A stretch of 64,000 bases of DNA, taken from contig JALTZJ010000015.1 in the NCBI GenBank assembly GCA_027046245.1, positions 1-64,000 on the forward strand. Reading direction: 5' to 3'. Below are positions 42,328-59,347 of the stretch, one piece after another (position 1 is the stretch's first letter; each line of letters begins with the position of its first letter). Source of the stretch: Acidilobaceae archaeon. GTDB taxonomy: Archaea > Thermoproteota > Thermoprotei_A > Sulfolobales > Acidilobaceae. Position numbers and translations under genes: made by a program. The notes below the pieces were generated by a model. The model was not told the origin of the DNA. It ran no database searches and saw only the letters and a list, made by a program, of their open reading frames with translations.

Positions 42328-43110
42328 GTGCACTCGATGGGCTTAGAAGTAGTAAACCTGACCGCTAGGATAGGCGAGAAGACCGTGCTCAAAAACGTGA
42401 GCCTCAACGTGAACTACGGAGAGGTACACGCCATAATGGGGCCTAACGGTAGCGGCAAGAGCAGTCTAGCTTATGTCATAATGGGTAGAGAGATCTACGA
42501 GGTTGTAGACGGCGACATACTGCTAGACGGGGAGAGCATAAAGGACCTGCCCCCAGAGGAGAGGGCTATCAAGGGCATATTCCTGGCTATGCAGGACCCG
42601 CCTCAGGTGCCGGGCGTCAGGCTGAGCAGCCTGATAATAGCAGCGGCCAACAAGAAGCTGGGCGGCGAGGGGGAACTCGGCAGGCCCCGCGACCCGAGGA
42701 TACTCAAGCGCATGATGGAGCTAGCGAAGGAGATAGGACTAGATCCCTCGATACTCCAGAGAGAGGTAAACGTGGGCTTCAGCGGCGGCGAGAGAAAGAG
42801 GAGTGAGATACTCCAGGCACTACTCCTCGACCCCAAGATAGTGATTCTAGATGAGCCCGACAGCGGGCTAGACATAGACGGTATAAAGATAGTGGCTCAA
42901 TACATAAACAAGCTCAGGGAGCAGGGCAAGGGCGTTATGCTGATAACCCACTACGCCAGGCTACTCCAGTACGTGAAGCCCGACAGGGTCACAGTCCTGA
43001 TAGGTGGCGAAGTCGTTGCTACGGACGGATACGAGTTAGCGCGGCTAGTAGAGGAGAAGGGATACGCCTACGTGAAGCAGGCCTTCAGAAAAGGTAGTGC
43101 GCAGGGTTAA
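42328..43110 (+). CDS. sufC: Fe-S cluster assembly ATPase
   Basis: MGPNGSGKSSLAYVIMG, FSGGERKRSEILQALLLDPKIVILDEPDSGLDID. Confidence 0.97.
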   Translation: MHSMGLEVVNLTARIGEKTVLKNVSLNVNYGEVHAIMGPNGSGKSSLAYVIMGREIYEVVDGDILLDGESIKDLPPEERAIKGIFLAMQDPPQVPGVRLSSLIIAAANKKLGGEGELGRPRDPRILKRMMELAKEIGLDPSILQREVNVGFSGGERKRSEILQALLLDPKIVILDEPDSGLDIDGIKIVAQYINKLREQGKGVMLITHYARLLQYVKPDRVTVLIGGEVVATDGYELARLVEEKGYAYVKQAFRKGSAQG

Positions 43111-43156
43111 ACCCCCAACCAGGCTATTTTAACAGTGTTAATGTGGGGTGTGAGTA

Positions 43157-44590
43157 ATGGGTGAGATGGTAGAGCTAAAGAAAGAGCTGCTTGGAGGCGT
43201 AGACCTGGCAGAGCAGCTGCTCGGCAGGGAGAAGCCCGTAAAGGTCGAGGTTGAGATCAAGGGTAAGATAACCAAAGACATGATAGAGGAGATAAGCAGG
43301 ATAAAGAAGGAGCCCGAGTGGATGAAGAGGCTCAGGCTCAGGAGCCTAGAGCTATTCTACAAGCTGCCTTGGCCGAAGTGGCTCACCGGCATAGAGAGCA
43401 TCAATCTAGAGGAGATGGTGCTCTACAGCAGGCCAGAGGTTCAGGGCCCCGCTAAGAGCTGGGACGAGCTACCTAAGGAAATAAGGGAGTACTACGAGAA
43501 GCTCGGCCTCCCAGAGCTAGAAGCCAGGTTCCTCAGCGGCCTCAGCACAGTCTTCGACAGCGAGACGGTATATGCCAGGGTGAAGAAGTATCTAGAGGAG
43601 AAGGGAGTCATAGTACTGCCCATGGAGGAAGCCGTGAGGAAGTACCCCGACCTGGTTAAACAGTACTTCATGAGGATATTCCCGCCAAGCGACCACAAGT
43701 TCGCAGCCCTCCACGGCGCCCTCTGGAGCGGCGGCACATTCATCTACGTCCCTAAGGGCGTCAAGATAAGGGAGCCCATAGAGAGCTTCTTCCTGATAGG
43801 CAGGAGCGGTGAGGGACAGTTCGAGCACAGTCTGATAGTGGCGGATGAGGGCGCCTATGTCGAGTGGATAGAGGGCTGCAGCGCCCCCAGGCTCTCCAGG
43901 TTCAGCTTCCACGACGGCATGGTAGAGGCCTACGCCCACAGGAACGCAACGATAAAGATAATCACCGTGCAGAACTGGAGCAAGGACGTGATAAACCTTA
44001 ATAACAAGAGGGGCATCGCAGAGGACGGGGCCAGGATAGACTGGATAGAGGGCAGCATAGGCAGCAAGATAACCTACGTGTACCCAAGCACGGTACTCAA
44101 GGGAGACAACAGCGCCACAAGGAACACTGTAGTAACAATAGCCAAGGGGCCCCACATAAAGGACAGCGGCAGCAAAGTCATACACGTGGGCAAGAACACC
44201 AGGAGCCAGATAATAAACAAGACTATCAGCGCCGACGGCGGCATAAACATCTACAGGGGCATAGTAAGGGTGCTAAGAGGAGCAAAGAACGCCACAGCTA
44301 ATGTAGAGTGTGAAAGCCTAATACTAGACGATAAGAGTAAGGCCCACACATACCCGCACAACCAGGTAGACGAGCCGACGGCCAGCGTAAACCACGAAGC
44401 CACCACTGGCAGGCTAACCGAGCAGCAGCTATTCTACCTAACAAGCAGAGGGCTAGACGAGGACGAAGCAAAGAGCCTGGTAGTTCTAGGCTTCCTAGAC
44501 GAGATCCTAGGAGAGTTGCCATTCGAGTACGCACAGGTGCTAACCAGGGTAGTACAGCTAGAGTTCAGCAAGTACGGAGCCTTCGGCTAA
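43157..44590 (+). CDS. sufB: Fe-S cluster assembly protein SufB
   Basis: SDHKFAALHGALWSGGTFIYVPKGV, CESLILDDKSKAHTYP. Confidence 0.97.
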   Translation: MGEMVELKKELLGGVDLAEQLLGREKPVKVEVEIKGKITKDMIEEISRIKKEPEWMKRLRLRSLELFYKLPWPKWLTGIESINLEEMVLYSRPEVQGPAKSWDELPKEIREYYEKLGLPELEARFLSGLSTVFDSETVYARVKKYLEEKGVIVLPMEEAVRKYPDLVKQYFMRIFPPSDHKFAALHGALWSGGTFIYVPKGVKIREPIESFFLIGRSGEGQFEHSLIVADEGAYVEWIEGCSAPRLSRFSFHDGMVEAYAHRNATIKIITVQNWSKDVINLNNKRGIAEDGARIDWIEGSIGSKITYVYPSTVLKGDNSATRNTVVTIAKGPHIKDSGSKVIHVGKNTRSQIINKTISADGGINIYRGIVRVLRGAKNATANVECESLILDDKSKAHTYPHNQVDEPTASVNHEATTGRLTEQQLFYLTSRGLDEDEAKSLVVLGFLDEILGELPFEYAQVLTRVVQLEFSKYGAFG

Positions 44591-44757
44591 ACTAGGATAT
44601 AAATAAGAAGGAAGAAAGAGAGAGGTGTATTATAGGCATGAACAGTTTGAAGACCCACTCTTTTATCATCCCTAGAGATTCATGCTTGAATCACTTATCC
44701 TTGATTCCCCCCTCCCGGGGGGCCTAAAGAGGTGAGTGTTGAGAGGGGTGAAGCGGT

Positions 44758-45912
44758 GTGAGTGGAAGCAGGGAAAAGTACCTTGAATTGCTCCGTAAGC
44801 TTCCCTTCCAGGCCATAGCTGACACGCCTACGGTGAGATACTACACTGATTGGAAGGAGTATGAGGCCCGGCTTGATAGCGAGTACGCCGATGAACCCGA
44901 TGAAGTAGCAGAGTTCCTGAGGGATTTACGCAGCGAGGCCAATGTTGTGCTAGATGTTGACGTATCGATTACGGGGCTGCCGAAGGGGGTAGCGGCTGAG
45001 AGGATAGAAGACTATGTGGATGGAGAGGGCTTGAAGCCTTTCACGCTGATAGAAGTCGCCAATAAAATGACGGCGTACCACGCCTACAGGTGGAGGGAGG
45101 GAGTCAAGATAACAGTGGAGGAGGGCGCCGACTTCGGCAGGATAGTACTATTCAGTGGTAGCGGGCGCGACGGATACGTGGGCCACCATATACTATTGGA
45201 TGTGGGTGAAGGAGCCAAGGGAGAGATAGTCTTCGTGGATTACGCTGGTGAATCGGGAGGCCTCAAGACCCTGCTAGCGGAGATAAGAGTGAACCCGAAA
45301 GCCGAGGTCAATTTAGTGACCCTAGTACACCATGGTAAGAACAAGCCGGTCTACGCCCTCAGAGCGGTAGAGGTACTGGCGCAGGCCAGCGTTGAGAGCC
45401 TATTCTTCGCCGCAGGAGGCAAAATGACCAGGTTCCAGGACGACAACCTGATAAACGGCCGCCTGGCACGCTTCGAAATGAAGGCAAGCAACGTGGCGAG
45501 ACCGGCAACAAAGAGCGACATAATACTAAGCACGCTACACAAAGGCCCGGAGAGCGAGGGCGTAGTAAAGGCTAGGGGCATTGTAATAGGAGACGGCTAC
45601 CTAGCCCAGAGGGGAGCAGCGGTACTATACGATGAAGCATCGCTAGCTGCAAGCGAAGTAGAGAGCTACGTAACACTGCTAAGCGAGAAGGGCAAGGGAT
45701 ACGCAGTACCAGTACTAGAGATACACACCGGCGAGATAACCAGGGCAGGGCACAGCGCGGCAGTGGCAAGCCTAGGAGAAGAATTCACGTTCTACCTAAA
45801 AACAAGAGGGCTTAGTGAAGACGAGATAACAGGACTATTAATAGAGGGAGTAGCAAGCTTCAGTGGAGTCGCGGAGAAGCTAGCAATACCATTCACAGAA
45901 CTAATAAAGTAG
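44758..45912 (+). CDS. sufD: Fe-S cluster assembly protein SufD
   Basis: SufBD-like; HKGPESEGVVKARGIV; third gene of the cluster. Confidence 0.9.
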   Translation: MSGSREKYLELLRKLPFQAIADTPTVRYYTDWKEYEARLDSEYADEPDEVAEFLRDLRSEANVVLDVDVSITGLPKGVAAERIEDYVDGEGLKPFTLIEVANKMTAYHAYRWREGVKITVEEGADFGRIVLFSGSGRDGYVGHHILLDVGEGAKGEIVFVDYAGESGGLKTLLAEIRVNPKAEVNLVTLVHHGKNKPVYALRAVEVLAQASVESLFFAAGGKMTRFQDDNLINGRLARFEMKASNVARPATKSDIILSTLHKGPESEGVVKARGIVIGDGYLAQRGAAVLYDEASLAASEVESYVTLLSEKGKGYAVPVLEIHTGEITRAGHSAAVASLGEEFTFYLKTRGLSEDEITGLLIEGVASFSGVAEKLAIPFTELIK

Positions 45913-46212: not shown

Positions 46213-49200
46213 TCAGCGGCTTGCCGCTATTCTCGCTACGAACACGTTGTTCTCTCCCTGGGAGTTGCTTTCGAGTAGCTCTCTAGCAGCATCTATGTAT
46301 TGCCTTGCGGCTTCTAGTGCTCTTTCAAGCGCGTACTCGTGGTAGCCATTGTCGTCGCCTACTGCTTTGGCTGCAGCTTCGTGTAGGGTCATTACTGCCT
46401 TTAGTATGTACTTGGCGGCCTCGCCAGCCTTCCTAGCATTGTCGCTGCCCGGCTCGCTATTGTTAAGGGCGTCTAGAGCTCTCCGCCAGAGATTTAGTGC
46501 TTCAGCTAGTAGCTGCGAGGCCTCGCTTACATAGCCGCCTAGTCCTTCACCGGTTAAGACCTCCTTAGCCTGTGACGCGCTGGCCATAGCGTCTGCTAGT
46601 TTACTCCATGCATCGTCTGCAGCGCTCGTAGCATTGTCTATGTTGCCCTCAGCTAGTGCTACCATTGCATCCACTAGCTCCTCTAGGGCGCTGTATACAT
46701 CGTAGTATGCGTTGAGGACAGCGTCTACATTGTCGCTGTTTAGGGCGTCGTGGTTACCGACCACTAGCCAGTCAAGCGCTTCTAGATACTCGTTGCTGAT
46801 CTCAATTAAAGTCATCACTCTGGCAGTCTCGGCGGCCGCCGGCATGATCCCTCCTCTCCCCTCATCGTCGCCGTGCCTGGAGTACGTGGAATCCCAGCCT
46901 TCGTCTTCCCACTCACGATCGCCTGCCTCTTTTACTCCTTCTAGCAGCTTCTCTCTAGCCTTCCCGAGAGCTTCGTAAGCGTTAAGGATGCTTGAGAATG
47001 CTGCATTTGTGTCTCCGTTTGCAGCGGCTTCGCGCGCCCTCTCGATGGCAGTCTCGGCGGCCTCAATGTAGTCTAGGGCTTTCCTGATATTCTCGCTGTT
47101 GAATGCGTTAGCGTTGTTCATCTTCTCTGCTAGGTTCCTGAGAGCTGTTGTCTGTGTCTCGGCAACCAGCAGTAGGGGCTCTATGCTGCTCAGGCTCTCC
47201 TCAGCCCTCTCCAGGATTCTGCGTGCCTCCTCTATGAGGGTCCTGGCCTCTTCCATTAGATCCTCCGCTTCTATTAGAAGCTCTCTAGCGTCGTCTACAT
47301 CGCCGTCCTCGGCAGCATCCTTCGCCTCATCGAGCAGCTCCTTTGCCTCTTCTAACAGAGTCATAGCCTCTTCTAGCTTACTGGTAGCTTCATCACTGTT
47401 CATCTGCACAGCCTTTTCCAGAAGCGTCTCTGCCTCGTCTCTAAGCGCCTCTACCCTCTCCATCTTCTCCTCAATCTCCCTTAGAATAGCATTCGCCTCC
47501 TCATGACTCTTAAGCATATGCTTTGCCTCCTCAACGTACTCCTCGGCATCATCTAGGAGCTGCATAGCATTTTCGAGATGCTCCCTGGCTCCCTCGATGT
47601 CTCCCTGGTCTAGGGCCTCCTCTGCTTGGTCTAGCTGCCTCTGCGCCTCCTCTACTAGGGCCTCTGCCTGATCCAGCAGTTCTATCACATCGCTAGCGTC
47701 CAGCTCTTCCGCCTTAGCCCTTAGCTCGCCTATCTTCTCCAGCATAACCTCGGCCTTCGCTCTTACCTCAGCTATCTCGCCTCTTACCTCCTCCATCTCG
47801 CCCTCCAGATACTCGTCTATTATTTCCTTAGCCTTCTCCACGAGCCTGGCCGCCTCCTTATAGAGGCTCCTTGCCTCCTCGAGCTTCTCCCAAGCAGACT
47901 CTATATCGCCATTATCTGCATCACTAACTGCTTCCTCTACAAGGCTTGCAGCGTTCTCGAGCAGGCTCTCGGCCTCCTCAGCCATGTCCTTAGCCTCCTC
48001 TACGCCTAGCTCCTCAGCCTTCGCCGCGACACTCCTTGCTTCGTCAAGCTTCTCCTCTATCTTCTCCCTTAGCTTCTCGGCCTCCTTCCCTATCTTGTCT
48101 GCCTCTTCCTTTACACGCTCCATCTCCTTCTTAGCCTGCTCCAGCATAGCTCTAGCCTGCTCGATTAGACCTCTCGCCTCGCCTACAAGCCTTCTAGCCT
48201 CAGCTACGTTGCCGTCCTCTAGCTCGTCTTCAGCCTCATCCAGTAGATTTAAGGCGCTCTCAGCTAGGTCTAGGGCTGCCATGGCCTTCTCCTTCACCCT
48301 CTCAGGCGCTCCACTCTCCGCTAGCTTCCTCGCCTCTCCAGCTATCTTGGCTGCCTCCACCTGTAGCGTTGCTATCTCCCTGGCTATGTCGGCGGTGTCT
48401 CCGCCTATGCTCTCCGCTAGCTTCCTCGCAGCCTCAAGTACCAGGCTCCTAGCCTGGTCTAGTAGCTGCCTAGCTTCACCGTAGTACTGCTCTGCCTCTT
48501 CGTTATCACCTCTAAATAGCGCCGCCTTGGCTTTGTCAAGCTTCTTCTGAGCTTCGTCTATAAGATCGTCGGCTTCTTCAAGCATCTGCTCGGCCTCCTC
48601 ATCGCCGACCCTCTCGGCCTTCTTCTCTAGTATCTTAACCGCCACCTCGAGCTTCCTCGCCTCAACATCGGTCACTAGGATCTTAGCCTCTAGCGGTAGG
48701 GACTCGCTCATCACGCCAGCGACGAGAGCTTCAGCCTGGTCTAGTAGCTGCCTAGCCTCCTCCACTAGGCTCCTGGCATCCTCTATCCTATCCTCCTCTA
48801 AGGCCTGCTCGGCCTGGTCAAGTCTCTCCATCGCCTGAGCAACCTGGTCTTCAGCAGTTGCAAGGTCTTCGCTGTTAACAAATGCCTTGGCAGCTTCTAT
48901 TACAACTGATAGTATCTCCGCTCTTAGTCTCTCCACGGCTATCTCAGCTCTAACACTTGCAGTCTCAGCCTGATGCCTAGCAGCTAGCTCCATGGCCTCA
49001 GCGGCTAGCCTGGCGGCCTCGCCGGCTAGCTCCATGGCCTCCATAGCCTTCTCCTGTGCCTCTTCGTAGTCGCCATTTTCAAGTGCAGCTATGGCCTCCT
49101 CAAGCTTAGCTAGAGCTTCTTCCAGCTTCTGCTTAGCCTCCTCCAGCTTCTGCCTAGCCTCTCCCGGCAGGCCTGCGGCCTCTGCCCTCGTGACGGCTTC

Positions 49201-50712
49201 TCTAGCAGCGTCGATAGCTTCCCTCGCCGCCTCTATCGCCTCCTCAGCTGTCTCCCTAGCCTCCTCCATGGCCTCCCTCAGGGCCTCGGCCCTGTCGAGG
49301 GCTTCTTCTGCAAGATCGAGGGCTTCCTCCGCCTGCTCTAACAGCTGTTCAGCCTCTTCGAGCCTCCCCTCGTCTATAGCCGTTAATGCTCTCTCTGCCA
49401 GCCTCTGGGCCTCTCTAGCAAGCTCTAGGGCCCTCTGGGCCTCTTCGGCCGGGCTACCTCCTTCGGCCGCGAGCTTTTCTGCCTTCCTAGCTAGCTCCTC
49501 CGCGTCGTTTATGAGGTTCTTGGCCTTCTCAGCAAGCTCTCTAGCCCTGCGGTCCTCCTCGTCTCCAGTAGCCTTGCCTGCGTCAAGCGACGCGGCGACG
49601 GCCTCAATAGTGCCCTCCGCCTCCTCGACTAGAACTCTGGCTTCTCCTATGAGTAGGGCCGCCTCCGCTGCGTCACCCGAGTCTAGCCTTGCCAGTGCAT
49701 CCTCAAGCTTCTGCCTGGCCTCTCCCAGCCTCTCCAGGGCTTCCTCAAGCGTTTCAGCATTGTCACTGCCCGCGAGTTCTAGGAGAGCCTCAGCTCTAAT
49801 CTGGAGATCGTCTATCTTAGCCAGGAGCCTCTCGGCGGTAACCCTAAGTCCCCTGGCAACACCATCCCTTGCATCTTCTCCGGCGGTCTCCGAGAGCTGC
49901 ATAGCTGTTTCAATGGCACTTCTAGCTCTCTCCAGGCTCTCAAGGGCTATCCTTAGTGCAGCCTGAGCCTCTTCATCTTGCACGCGTTCAGCAACCCTCT
50001 GTAGAACCTCGATAGCTCTCTCTACGCCGCTGAGTGCCTCATCCAAGGGAGAACCGGCCTCGACGGACGACATGGCGGCCTTTACAGCCCTGACTCCCGT
50101 CTCGGAGGCTGCAACAGCCTCTACCTTGACATTAACAGTGGCTAGTATAGTGAGAGCTTCCTCTATCCTGCCTTCGGCAGCGCTCCTTAAGGCGCTCGCG
50201 AGGCTTAGAAGATCGGGCCTGCCTAGCTCCTCCGCTATAACCTCAAGTCTGTCAGCGACTTCGACAGCGATCGCTGCTAAGACGGACTCGCCGGCCCTCT
50301 CACTAGCAGCCTCGGCAACAAGGGAGCCCACCTTAGTTATCATTCTGTCAAGCTCGACTACTAGAGCCTCAAGCTCGCTAGCTTCGAGTGATTCTAAGTT
50401 CTCGTCCGCAAGTCCCAGTAGCTCCTCTACCCTCTCCCTCTCGCCAGTGCCAAGCTCGTCAAGAACCCAGGGATTCTCTTCCACTATCTTCTGTAGAATT
50501 AAGAGTCTCACCTTTACCTGAGCAGAAAGCTCCTCCCTAAGCCTGGCAGTTTCGCCGCCCTGCTGGGCTAGAGCAACTACGCCAGTGGCAGCGTAGTACA
50601 CGCTATTGAATATCATCAGCGCTGTTAGTAGTACGGCAAATAGCCTCACAGCCTGGAGCCTCAAGGTGCATCCACCCTCCGGTGCCCCCGGAGGCTCTAA
50701 ACTGGGTTCCAT
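46213..50712 (-). CDS. Giant (1499 aa) secreted/membrane-anchored helical-repeat protein
   Basis: N-terminal hydrophobic segment LFAVLLTALMIFNSVYYAATGVVALA, then Glu/Ala/Leu-rich repeats with recurrent xGD/NxxxA turns. Confidence 0.9.
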   Translation of the reverse strand: MEPSLEPPGAPEGGCTLRLQAVRLFAVLLTALMIFNSVYYAATGVVALAQQGGETARLREELSAQVKVRLLILQKIVEENPWVLDELGTGERERVEELLGLADENLESLEASELEALVVELDRMITKVGSLVAEAASERAGESVLAAIAVEVADRLEVIAEELGRPDLLSLASALRSAAEGRIEEALTILATVNVKVEAVAASETGVRAVKAAMSSVEAGSPLDEALSGVERAIEVLQRVAERVQDEEAQAALRIALESLERARSAIETAMQLSETAGEDARDGVARGLRVTAERLLAKIDDLQIRAEALLELAGSDNAETLEEALERLGEARQKLEDALARLDSGDAAEAALLIGEARVLVEEAEGTIEAVAASLDAGKATGDEEDRRARELAEKAKNLINDAEELARKAEKLAAEGGSPAEEAQRALELAREAQRLAERALTAIDEGRLEEAEQLLEQAEEALDLAEEALDRAEALREAMEEARETAEEAIEAAREAIDAAREAVTRAEAAGLPGEARQKLEEAKQKLEEALAKLEEAIAALENGDYEEAQEKAMEAMELAGEAARLAAEAMELAARHQAETASVRAEIAVERLRAEILSVVIEAAKAFVNSEDLATAEDQVAQAMERLDQAEQALEEDRIEDARSLVEEARQLLDQAEALVAGVMSESLPLEAKILVTDVEARKLEVAVKILEKKAERVGDEEAEQMLEEADDLIDEAQKKLDKAKAALFRGDNEEAEQYYGEARQLLDQARSLVLEAARKLAESIGGDTADIAREIATLQVEAAKIAGEARKLAESGAPERVKEKAMAALDLAESALNLLDEAEDELEDGNVAEARRLVGEARGLIEQARAMLEQAKKEMERVKEEADKIGKEAEKLREKIEEKLDEARSVAAKAEELGVEEAKDMAEEAESLLENAASLVEEAVSDADNGDIESAWEKLEEARSLYKEAARLVEKAKEIIDEYLEGEMEEVRGEIAEVRAKAEVMLEKIGELRAKAEELDASDVIELLDQAEALVEEAQRQLDQAEEALDQGDIEGAREHLENAMQLLDDAEEYVEEAKHMLKSHEEANAILREIEEKMERVEALRDEAETLLEKAVQMNSDEATSKLEEAMTLLEEAKELLDEAKDAAEDGDVDDARELLIEAEDLMEEARTLIEEARRILERAEESLSSIEPLLLVAETQTTALRNLAEKMNNANAFNSENIRKALDYIEAAETAIERAREAAANGDTNAAFSSILNAYEALGKAREKLLEGVKEAGDREWEDEGWDSTYSRHGDDEGRGGIMPAAAETARVMTLIEISNEYLEALDWLVVGNHDALNSDNVDAVLNAYYDVYSALEELVDAMVALAEGNIDNATSAADDAWSKLADAMASASQAKEVLTGEGLGGYVSEASQLLAEALNLWRRALDALNNSEPGSDNARKAGEAAKYILKAVMTLHEAAAKAVGDDNGYHEYALERALEAARQYIDAARELLESNSQGENNVFVARIAASR

Positions 50713-50765
50713 TCAGCTTAAGGACCTCCTAGTGGAACGGTTCCGCTCTCTGTTCCACGCCTTGG

Positions 50766-50835
50766 TTGACTAGTTTCAGGTTTATGCCGTGTTTGCGTGT
50801 AAGAGTTAAGGGTGGAGGCGGTACCGGCTAGTCAA
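50766..50835. promoter_or_regulatory. Inverted repeat TTGACTAG/CTAGTCAA in divergent intergenic region
   Basis: TTGACTAG 50766-50773 and CTAGTCAA 50828-50835. Confidence 0.4.
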
Positions 50836-50847
50836 GGGTATTGAGCC

Positions 50848-51948
50848 GTGAGCGGCATTAGTGCGGTGTCATCCGTTTTCGTAGCTATACTTGTATTATC
50901 CATATTAGGATTAGTATTTGCCTGGCCGGCCATGGCGGCTCAGGTAGTGAGCGAGAAGCTAGTGATAGCAGGTGACGGGGCCGCGAGGGTTGTGCTCGAG
51001 GTCCAGCTGGATGCCGGTGTAAACGAGGTCCTCTTGCCGGCCCCACCGATACCGGCTAGTATAGTAGTCGAGTTCCAGGGCGAGGTTCTACCCGCTATCT
51101 ACGAGCCAGACCCCGAGCCTGGAATGCTGATAATAGCCGTTGAGGCTCCGGGAGTAGCCAGCATAAACTACCTAGCATCGGTGACCGTCGATAACGGGGT
51201 TGTAACTGTAACGTACAAACCCGTGACGGGAGAGGCGCAGCTGATCGTTGAGCCTGGGGTAGTGCTGCTCAACGCCCCCGCATCTGCAGTTGAATACGGA
51301 GTCGAAGGAGGCAACCTGGTAATCGTGTTTACCGGGGAGGAAATAATAAAGTACACACTAAGCGTAGAGCCGCCGCCTCAAGAGACGCAGACAGCAACAG
51401 GAACGACAACCACCACTACAGAGACGGTAACCGAGGAGCAGACCCAAGCAGAGACGACAACCGAAGCCGCCGGGCAGGAAGAGGCACCTGCTCAGGAGGC
51501 AGAGGCCGAAGAGCCTGGAGAGGGGGAGCCTCGAGATGAGGGCCTCCCGGTAGCTGCTTTCTTGCTGGCTGCTATCGTCATAGGAGGACTGCTGGCTGCA
51601 TTGTTCTTCCTTAGGAGCCGTGGGGGCCAGGTAGGCGGCAGGAGCGCCCCGACCCCTCCGCCTTCTACAGGCTCTCAGAGCATGGCACCGGAGGAGTCTG
51701 GGGAGGCGGTGGAGGCGTCAATAGACTACAGTGCGGATCTTGACGATGTCGACAGGAGAATAATTGAGGTGCTCCGGAGCGCCGGGGGAGAGCTTTACCA
51801 GAGCGATATTCAGAGGCTGACGGGCCTCCCTAAGACGACGGTGTGGAGGCATATAAGGAAGCTGGTGGAGGCTGGCATCCTAGAAGTTATCAAGGAGGGT
51901 AAGGCTAACAGGGTTAGACTGATAAGGGACCCCATACAGGGGGGTTAG
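50848..51948 (+). CDS. Membrane-spanning wHTH regulator (extracellular domain + TM + cytoplasmic winged helix)
   Basis: N-terminal signal, Thr-rich stalk, TM (AAFLLAAIVIGGLLAALFFLRSRGG), C-terminal DDVDRRIIEVLRSAGGELYQSDIQRLTGLPKTTVWRHIRKLVEAGIL. Confidence 0.85.
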   Translation: MSGISAVSSVFVAILVLSILGLVFAWPAMAAQVVSEKLVIAGDGAARVVLEVQLDAGVNEVLLPAPPIPASIVVEFQGEVLPAIYEPDPEPGMLIIAVEAPGVASINYLASVTVDNGVVTVTYKPVTGEAQLIVEPGVVLLNAPASAVEYGVEGGNLVIVFTGEEIIKYTLSVEPPPQETQTATGTTTTTTETVTEEQTQAETTTEAAGQEEAPAQEAEAEEPGEGEPRDEGLPVAAFLLAAIVIGGLLAALFFLRSRGGQVGGRSAPTPPPSTGSQSMAPEESGEAVEASIDYSADLDDVDRRIIEVLRSAGGELYQSDIQRLTGLPKTTVWRHIRKLVEAGILEVIKEGKANRVRLIRDPIQGG

Positions 51949-56162: not shown

Positions 56163-56459
56163 TTGAACGAGGATTGGTGCAGTACCGTGGATAAGCTCTC
56201 AGCTCTTGCCCGTCTAGAGCTGGGCGGCGATGAAAGGGAGAGGATGTGCAGGGAGGTAAAGGTTATAGCAGAGTATTTGAGGGGCGTGGGCGAAGCCCTC
56301 AAGGGCGTCGAGGCCGAGCCACTCTACCACGTGTGGGAGGAGGAGAGCTGGCTCAGGCCCGGAGGAGAGCGTGAGCCTGTTGATCTAGCCTGGGTTGTAG
56401 GCAGTGATAGGGTCGACGAGGAGGGCCGCTTGAAGGTGCCATGGAGGGAGGTGAAGTAG
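56163..56459 (+). CDS. gatC: Asp/Glu-tRNA(Asn/Gln) amidotransferase subunit C
   Basis: DKLSALARLELGGDERERMCREVKVIAEYL; next to gatA. Confidence 0.9.
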   Translation: MNEDWCSTVDKLSALARLELGGDERERMCREVKVIAEYLRGVGEALKGVEAEPLYHVWEEESWLRPGGEREPVDLAWVVGSDRVDEEGRLKVPWREVK

Positions 56460-56462
56460 GCG

Positions 56463-57905
56463 GTGCACAGGACCCCAGGAATAGCGGATCTCCTATACGC
56501 CTACGCTAATGGCGACATGGATCCGGTGGAGCACGCAGCTAGGGTGCTAGAGGAGATAAGGCGCTGGGAGCCTAAGGTTAACGCCTTCATATCCCTAGAG
56601 GATCCGGAGCTAGTGCTTGAGGCCGCAGAGGATGCCGGAAAGAGGTGGAAGAGGGGGGAGGCGAGGCCCCTAGAGGGAATACTAGTAGGAGTAAAGGACA
56701 ACATATCCACAAGCTTCCTACCTACAACCGCTGCCTCTAGAATGCTAGACCCCTACGTGCCACCCTACAACGCCACAGTAGTAGACCGCCTCCTAGAGAG
56801 GGGCGCCATAATCCATGGAAAACTAAACCTAGACGAGTTCGCCATGGGCAGCACAGGCGAGTTCAGCGCCTTCGGCCCCACAAGGAACCCTTGGAGCCTT
56901 GATAGGGTGCCCGGCGGGAGCAGCAGCGGCAGCGGGGCATGCCTGGCATACGCGGGCTGCGACGGAGCCCTGGGGAGCGATACAGGCGGGAGCGTCAGGC
57001 TACCAGCAGCCTACACTGCAACAGTGGGGCTAAAGCCCACATACGGCCTCGTCTCTAGAAGGGGCCTTATACCCTACGGGAACAGTCTCGAGCAGATAAG
57101 CCCCATGGCGAGGAGCGTGCGCGATGTAGCACTGCTACTTGAAGCAATAGCGGGCTGGGATCCCGGCGACGCCACTAGCCTAAGAACCGAAGCCCCTAGC
57201 CTCTCGGGCCTCAAGCCGGCGGAGCCAGGCGAGGTTAGGGTCTGCGTGCCGCGCGGGCTGCCAGAGCTCGCCGAGGAGCCTGTCAGAAAGGCGTTCTACT
57301 CGCTCCTCGAGAGGCTTGAATCCGAGGGAGCCAGTGTTGGCGAGGTCGAGATGCGCGGTGTGGAGAGAGCGCTGCCCGCATACTATACTATAGCTCTTGC
57401 AGAGGCCGCTAGCAACCTAGCAAGGTATGACGGCACCCTGTACCCTATGAGGGGCGAGAGCGGCGAGTACTGGCGCTACATAGCCCAGGCTAGGGGCAGG
57501 GGCTTCGGATTCGAGGTAAAGAAGAGAATACTAATGGGCGTCTACGTTCTTAGTGAGGGCTACAGGGATGAGTACTACGTAGCAGCCACTAGGCTCAGGA
57601 GGCTCGTTAGAGACGAGGTACTCAGGGCTACTAGGGGTTGTATACTGGCTACGCCTGCGAGCCCCGTGATGCCGCCCAGACTGGGGGAGAGGATAGGGGA
57701 CCCACTCAAGCTCTACGCTATGGACGCTTACACCGTTATAGCAAACCTAGCCGGGGTGCCGGCTCTAGTGCAGCCAGCGGGCTTCCACGAAGGGCTGCCC
57801 ATAGGGGTTCAGTTCATGGCTGGAAGGCTAGGCGAGCCCCAGCTCATCAGGCTAGGGCTCCTAGTTGAGGAGCTTACAGGTCTAGCGGAGGTGGTAGCGG
57901 GATGA
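56463..57905 (+). CDS. gatA: Asp/Glu-tRNA amidotransferase subunit A
   Basis: [42 protein letters not shown] amidase signature. Confidence 0.97.
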
Positions 57906-59347
57906 AGGCTAGGATAGGCCTAGAGATACACGTGCAGCTCAGCGAGGCAGGCACGAAGCTCTTCTGCAACTGTGACAGCGAGTACAGGCGGTACAGGCCC
58001 AACGAGAACGTGTGCCCAGTGTGCCTCGGCCTCCCAGGCGCCCTTCCCGTGCCGGGTAAGAGGCCAGTGGAGCTAGCCCTAGCAGCCGCTCTAGCCCTGA
58101 ACTGCGAGCCCCCACGGGCCCTCGTATTCACGAGAAAGCACTACTTCTACCCCGACCTGCCGAAGAACTACCAGATAACACAGTTCGAGAAGGTAGGCGG
58201 CTCCCCAGTCTGCACCGGGGGCTACCTGGATTACCTGAGTCCCGACGACTGGGAGTGGAGGCGTGTAAGGATACGCAGGATAAACCTCGAGGAGGACCCA
58301 GGGAGGACTAGCTATGAGGGCAGCATACTCTCTAGTAGATACGCCTATGTAGACTATAACAGGAGCGGCGTACCGCTACTGGAGATAGTGACTGAGCCCG
58401 ACCTAAAGAGCCCCAGGGACGCCAGAGTCATGGTGGAGTACCTGCTCCTCACCCTAGAATACCTAGGCGCCACTAATCCTAGGCTCGAGGGCGTCTTCCG
58501 GGTAGACGCCAACGTTAGCCTCGAAGGCGGGGAGAGGGTCGAGATCAAGAATATAGGCTCCACTCTAGACGTAGAAAGGGCGCTACGCTACGAGATAAAC
58601 AGACAGAGGCTCGTGCTTGAAAGAGGGGGCAAGGTCGAGAGGGAGACGAGGCACTGGGACGCCGAGAGAGGAGTTACAAAGCCCCTACGCTACAAGGAGG
58701 AGGAAGAAGAGTACCTCTACTTCCCGGACCCGGATCTGCCACCAGTACTTATAACGAGGGACCTCCTGGAGGCCGCGAGAGAGAAGGTCGCAGAGTGGAG
58801 CCCCCGCAGGGTCTACGAGGAGATACTAGGCCTCGGCGTTAAGAGGGAAGTGGCTTGGAGCATAACTAGTGTGCCAGCAGCAGCTAGAACTTACCTAGCA
58901 GGCGTGAAGTCAGGCGGAGACCCAGGAATACTAGCAAGAATAGTAGGGGTGGATCTGAAGGGCGAGCTGAGAGAGCAGGGCCGCGACCCGTATAACCCGG
59001 GTAACTGGCCCGAGCCGGGCAAGCTAGCAGAGCTGAGCAGGCTAGTGGCGAAAGGCGAGTATACATACGATGCTGTGAAGGGGCTAGTACTGCCAAAACT
59101 AGCAGCGAACCCCGAAGCACCACTAGAGGAGCTTCTACCAGAGAAGGTGGAGGATCTTGAACCACTGGTAGAGGAGGTATTAAAGGAGGAGGAGAAAGCA
59201 GTGAAAGACTACCTAGGCGGTAAGAAGAAGGCTCTAAACTACCTGGTAGGCGCCGTTATGAGGAAAGCCAGAAAGAGAGCCCTGGATCCGAGGAGAGCCA
59301 GAGAACTGCTCCTCAAGAGACTAGAAGCAATGAAAACGGGCGCCTAA
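57902..59347 (+). CDS. gatB: Asp/Glu-tRNA amidotransferase subunit B
   Basis: [35 protein letters not shown] overlap with gatA. Confidence 0.97.

Follow-up and report, generated by a model that had tools for sequence, protein, structure and literature searches.

One-component regulators anchored in the membrane form an established class, and transmembrane transcription regulators (TTRs) of the ToxR/TcpP type are described as widespread in Thermoproteota (PMC10269533). A crenarchaeal example with another topology is provided by ArnR/ArnR1 of Sulfolobus acidocaldarius, membrane-bound helix-turn-helix (HTH) proteins that regulate surface structures and are associated with conserved promoter boxes, built from an N-terminal HTH, a HAMP-like plus sensor domain and two C-terminal transmembrane (TM) helices, with no extracellular beta domain (PMC6396743). 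Archaeal Lrp-type activators recruit TBP from a tightly constrained position a few bp upstream of the BRE (PMC2995911), and TrmB-type regulators activate from sites upstream of BRE/TATA and repress from sites downstream (PMC4158304). In the CpxRA-CpxP system of Escherichia coli, the divergent gene of a secreted helical protein, a strongly expressed target, lies near a membrane-linked regulator (PMC6737893). For archaea with few two-component systems, the gene pair described here would offer a short route from surface to gene.

The pair lies in a 64,000-nucleotide stretch of an Acidilobaceae archaeon genome (contig JALTZJ010000015.1), hereafter the window, whose assembly comprises 1.38 Mb in 73 contigs. 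The regulator gene has the following parts:

50848-51948, forward strand: transmembrane winged-HTH (wHTH) regulator, an open reading frame with a GTG start encoding 366 aa, supported by an AlphaFold2 model and by Pfam HTH_24/DUF7343
50848-50937, forward strand: signal peptide, residues 1-30, a hydrophobic helix in the model and in all homologues
50938-51363, forward strand: predicted extracellular beta-rich domain, residues 31-172, block pLDDT mostly 91-98 in the model
51364-51543, forward strand: disordered Thr/Glu-rich stalk, about residues 173-232, recognised by low pLDDT, composition and charge
51544-51621, forward strand: TM helix, residues 233-258, from the model, hydropathy and the Arg residues after the helix
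51727-51921, forward strand: predicted cytoplasmic wHTH, residues 294-358, block pLDDT mostly 96-98 in the model, with Pfam matches
51829-51870, forward strand: recognition helix region PKTTVWRHIRKLVE, residues 328-341, with residues invariant in homologues and TLW/PLY variants that track the half-site

The model, computed with 38 homologues as input (mean pLDDT 80.5), confirms the predicted product as a single-pass transmembrane winged-helix regulator with signal peptide, ectodomain, stalk, TM helix and wHTH. Its N-terminal helix spans residues 4-29, the stalk carries a net charge of -16, and a disordered linker of 35 residues joins the TM helix to the wHTH; the Arg residues following the TM helix place the C-terminus in the cytoplasm by the positive-inside rule. 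An earlier note on this DNA, written from the sequence alone, had proposed the ectodomain, the stalk, the one TM helix and the cytoplasmic winged helix but omitted the signal peptide, and its anatomy is borne out by the model, the Pfam matches, the signal peptide and the invariant recognition-helix residues. The recognition helix PKTTVWRHIRKL is intact, with P328, K329, R334 and L339 invariant in 38 homologues, so that the DNA-binding residues on which that proposal depended are retained, and the predicted fold agrees with the one-pass membrane wHTH protein it described. The note's further suggestion, that the regulator senses outside the cell, would fit this topology.

Pfam matches are confined to the wHTH (HTH_24, E 6e-10; DUF7343, E 1.7e-8), the ectodomain having none. 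The DUF7343 score of 34.6 bits exceeds the gathering cut-off of 27.6, which makes the window regulator a member of PF24034, and 31 of the 38 homologues also match this domain at E <= 0.01. A fold search with the regulator returned weak matches (TM-score < 0.3) to N-terminal regions of M1 aminopeptidases, which give a fold hint only. By sequence, the closest solved chain to the wHTH is the Lrp/AsnC-type regulator PH1519 (E 5e-6).

Set against the described systems, the regulator resembles the TTRs in being a single-pass polypeptide that unites a DNA-binding domain with a TM region, as seen in the model and by Pfam; the TTR survey is general, whereas the arrangement here is specifically a C-terminal wHTH with an N-terminal sensor. 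It falls outside the ArnR family, since its HTH is C-terminal and its one TM helix internal. With archaeal Lrp/AsnC activators such as Ptr2 and FL11/PH1519 it has in common a similar HTH, predicted inverted-repeat sites and their position just upstream of BRE/TATA; it differs in being membrane-anchored, in having an extracellular domain, and in half-sites that lie one turn apart in short arrays. It does not have the layout that defines the Lrp/AsnC (FFRP) family, an HTH at the N-terminus and then a RAM effector domain: no RAM match was found in Pfam, and the HTH only resembles theirs. The likeness to CpxRA-CpxP is one of logic only, in the gene arrangement and in an all-helical secreted partner known here from sequence and model; CpxRA is a two-component system, CpxP is small, and there is no homology to the window pair. 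In the literature searched, which was thin on subscription journals, no description was found of the regulator family, its partner or its operator: none of these papers names DUF7343, a domain of unknown function, and none gives the regulator family a paired secreted helical partner, an operator or a spacing rule.

The partner occupies the opposite strand:

46213-50712, reverse strand: gene of the paired giant secreted all-helical protein, supported by the open reading frame, a conserved N-terminal domain, the model, and Shine-Dalgarno-like and TATA-like elements
50672-50680, reverse strand: Shine-Dalgarno-like GGAGGGTGG ahead of TTG 50664
50717-50722, reverse strand: TATA-like CTTAAG of the giant gene, assigned by its position relative to the half-sites

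The protein measures 1499 aa from ATG 50712 or 1483 aa from TTG 50664, is rich in Glu, Ala and Leu, all-helical in the model, devoid of Cys and strongly acidic (net charge -189). Autocorrelation revealed no single clean long repeat period, with peaks at 14, 33, 40, 94 and 200 residues, and a fold search gave no meaningful match; sequence matches to designed helical bundles were set aside as due to composition. The true start is probably TTG 50664, ATG 50712 being unlikely because a promoter with CTTAAG at 50717-50722 cannot serve it. The candidate Shine-Dalgarno sequence GGAGGTCCTTAAG before ATG 50712 was rejected, since promoter comparison shows this to be the BRE/TATA region, with the start downstream. 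The earlier note's picture of two genes sharing an intergenic region thus holds in that the divergent open reading frame is real, but probably not in its extent: with the giant gene starting at TTG 50664, the shared region would run from about 50665 to 50847. Opposite the giant gene lie Ser/Ala-rich forward-strand open reading frames (47099-47506, 47984-48484, 49091-49966 and 50072-50521), which look like shadows of biased composition, not genes.

In heat-loving archaea, the membrane regulator almost always adjoins the gene of a long secreted helical protein. Homologues of the regulator were found in 53 of 60 relatives; the window regulator used as a single query against genome contigs gave no match, and a 12-row alignment did. 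Regulator and partner are divergent neighbours in all six Aeropyrum-genus genomes, where regulator identity is just 30-41%. A partner profile, trained on 12 partners all from the window's order, located the partner next to the regulator both in genomes of that order kept out of the training (G059, G068-G070, G076, G089, G093, G117 and G118) and, at E 1e-40 to 1e-17, in members of other classes (L063, L066-L072, L075, L080, L082, L085, L086 and L094); as this profile is compositionally biased, the case for the partner rests mainly on adjacency and less on the E-value. Outside the genus, partners are shorter or longer (about 290 to >1,000 aa), with an N-terminal domain in common. The pair is spread over Thermoproteota, with altered orientation, in Pyrodictiaceae, Desulfurococcaceae, Wolframiiraptor and Geothermarchaeota, its gene order switching between divergent and tandem as flanking genes are replaced and the pair stays. 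This conservation, within the genus and across Thermoproteota with changed orientation, argues that the pairing is not accidental, and the earlier note's proposal, which a lack of conservation would have undone, is upheld on this point. Some regulators lack a partner gene next to them (L036, L041, L046, L047, L049, L078, L079, L087, L092 and L093).

The six divergent regions of the genus, once aligned, each contain GGAAC/GTTCC repeats. As a palindrome, GGAAC-N0-1-GTTCC has one occurrence in the window's assembly and two in another genus genome (G003), all at the pair locus; other lineages have TGAAAC or GTTTCA at the equivalent position. A strict palindrome, GGAAC-N0-2-GTTCC, proved confined to loci of the Aeropyrum and Staphylothermus type, and the half-site TGRAAC took its place as the general motif. 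In the window, the elements are:

50733-50757: predicted operator TGGAACGGTTCCGCTCTCTGTTCCA, with half-sites at 50733-50738, 50740-50744 and 50752-50757
50773-50778: additional half-site GTTTCA

In the 200 bp upstream of 51 partner genes, TGRAAC/GTTYCA averages 1.98 copies, compared with 0.14 in 567 control upstreams, and at least three copies are present in 18 of the 51 as against 5 of the 567 (Fisher 3e-17). De novo ranking of 18,432 degenerate 6-mers in promoters of the LW group, the larger of two recognition-helix classes defined below, placed GTTYCA first: 32 of 40 promoters had it at least twice, whereas the best motif in each of 12 shuffles reached 7-12. The element belongs to the partner's promoter, since the regulator's own upstream region, where the regulator lies upstream in tandem or otherwise not divergent, has a mean of 0.09 TGRAAC. 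As the motif was first noticed in Aeropyrum, independent tests come solely from the remaining lineages, the unlinked partners and three second-class loci (L137, L127 and L130); unlinked partners in Ignisphaera-type genomes, held out from the search, have TGRAAC in 8 of 9 intact promoters, compared with 63 of the 567 control upstreams. The spaced form TGGAAC-N0-20-GTTCCA is found solely at the pair locus in four of the six genus genomes (G000, G001, G003 and G005), which suggests a very small regulon, and the predicted operator holds the only copy in the window's assembly. The control of the envelope proposed in the earlier note can thereby be narrowed to one promoter, that of the secreted partner's gene, where predicted sites stand at a fixed spacing. 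Elsewhere in two Aeropyrum genomes, TGGAACGGCGGTTCCA is conserved (G002:C1:723774-723789 and G004:C1:772695-772710), a possible second site of the regulator.

With TATA elements called by a simple pattern, distances from the half-site end to the TATA-like pentamer cluster at 8 bp (17 of 45 promoters) and at 18 bp (20 of 45); related promoters are not independent, and the two peaks correspond to ~12 and ~6 lineages, respectively. A broader group lies at 28-30 bp, with almost none at 0-5 or 11-16 bp, and at the window locus the spacing is 10 bp, a slight departure from 8. For these predicted sites, the pattern is one of helical phasing with a fixed proximal distance. They lie just upstream of BRE/TATA in a constrained position, as do those of Lrp-type activators, and this placement makes activation likelier than repression (PMC2995911, PMC4158304).

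The regulators were divided into two recognition-helix types: LW (TLW/TVW; 32 pairs) and LY (PLY/TLY; 15 pairs, two of them held out). At least two copies of TGRAAC are present in 24 of 32 LW promoters and 0 of 15 LY promoters, and at least two copies of CGGGAA in 0 of 32 and 7 of 15, respectively (Fisher 7e-7 and 1e-4). LW and LY are largely separate clades, which implies few independent changes of helix and half-site, and the link between them may rest on these few. De novo ranking in the LY group placed TTCCCR first (9 of 13 promoters; shuffle maximum 6), and in 8 of 16 promoters the CGGGAA sites likewise stand 8 bp from TATA. A single genome (L070) with two pairs 4 kb apart follows the rule at both, with three TGRAAC and no CGGGAA at one, and no TGRAAC and two CGGGAA at the other. 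Of the two held-out PLY regulators, one has three CGGGAA at its pair (L137) and the other none (L130); four more LY pairs are without either motif (L115, L069b, L075b and L080b), and LW pairs without TGRAAC include L039, L091 and L104. The two classes of helix and site constitute a natural experiment on specificity change in a wHTH. TTCCCG/CGGGAA repeats mark the second-class promoters L044, L045, L110, L137, L127 and L112, several sitting 8 or about 19 bp from TATA. Geothermarchaeota also have a second, paralogous PLY-type regulator with another secreted helical protein upstream in tandem (L069:1960-4259, L070:1369-3737, L075:2026-4244 and L080:381-2686).

The architecture, the pairing, the operator-like element, its spacing and the association of helix with half-site are shown by sequence analysis; that the regulator binds the element and activates, together with its signal and any feedback, is what we infer from them. 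The favoured reading, at a probability of roughly 0.74, is that a one-component membrane regulator has its secreted partner's gene as dedicated target, controlling it directly and probably by activation. The cytoplasmic wHTH would bind TGRAAC half-sites set roughly one helical turn from each other, ending 8 or 18 bp upstream of the TATA element of the target gene, and would activate transcription, most likely by aiding TBP/TFB binding in the manner of archaeal Lrp-type activators. A signal at the extracellular beta domain would travel via the stalk and TM helix, with the secreted partner as output and, plausibly, feeding back on the ectodomain. Such reporting of the partner to the ectodomain, as CpxP reports to CpxA (PMC6737893), is a hypothesis by analogy; if true, it would create a minimal two-gene surface-sensing loop. 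A bolder version is offered tentatively, and is itself rather doubtful: that this is an undescribed envelope-signalling module, widespread in archaea, that forms a complete two-gene feedback loop in which the partner is both the regulator's only target and its extracellular modulator, with no fewer than two specificity classes, TGRAAC and CGGGAA, present together in one cell. With its regulator, predicted site, spacing rule and one target gene, the module occurs in many cultured hyperthermophiles and is thus open to simple assays of DNA binding and transcription.

Among the other explanations, release of the wHTH from the membrane by regulated proteolysis, to act as a soluble factor, would suit the disordered stalk and linker that flank the TM helix in the model; it is nonetheless unlikely, as the loci share no recurrent gene that is an obvious protease and a single nearby target suits action at the membrane. 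A little less probable again is repression of the partner through the same sites, relieved by an outside signal. A few loci do have half-sites downstream of the TATA-like element as well (L070, L071, L080, L069 and L075), and the window has another TATA-like candidate, CATAAA, on the upstream side of its operator, yet across lineages the sites occupy the activator position, upstream of TATA at fixed spacing (PMC4158304, PMC2995911).

TGRAAC might instead belong to another, cytoplasmic regulator, the membrane protein being paired with its neighbour for a different reason, such as complex assembly. The link of the element to the membrane wHTH is drawn from sequence comparison, and Lrp/AsnC-type proteins, common in archaea, have similar inverted-repeat sites (PMC2995911); but half-site type tracks the helix type of the paired regulator, including the two pairs in one genome, and the element, restricted to partner promoters, is close to unique in four genomes of the genus, which leaves this reading somewhat less credible than repression. 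That the two genes are mere neighbours, their conservation and co-orientation incidental, is very improbable: citrate synthase is likewise a neighbour throughout the genus, but the pair outlasts inversion and wholesale change of flanks across classes, which citrate synthase does not, and partner promoters share a cis element. Direct control of the partner by the membrane regulator is preferred to each of these.

In several genus genomes, the pair is flanked on one side by ATPase and SufB/SufD-like genes (window 42328-45912) and on the other by citrate synthase and amidotransferase (gatA/gatB-like) genes (window 56163-59347), functions assigned from a look at the sequence and genus synteny only. 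Relatives consisting of the ectodomain and TM helix without the wHTH also adjoin the partner (L106:2846-3763, L109:3078-3881, L040:11845-12747 and L043:7094-7918), two of them with profile matches at E 5e-37 (L109) and 5e-33 (L106); these are possible decoys or co-receptors. Two genomes of Thermoprotei have, after the regulator, a different protein of ~670 aa with a C-terminal TM helix (L088:7222-9231 and L096:7805-9820), perhaps a replaced partner.
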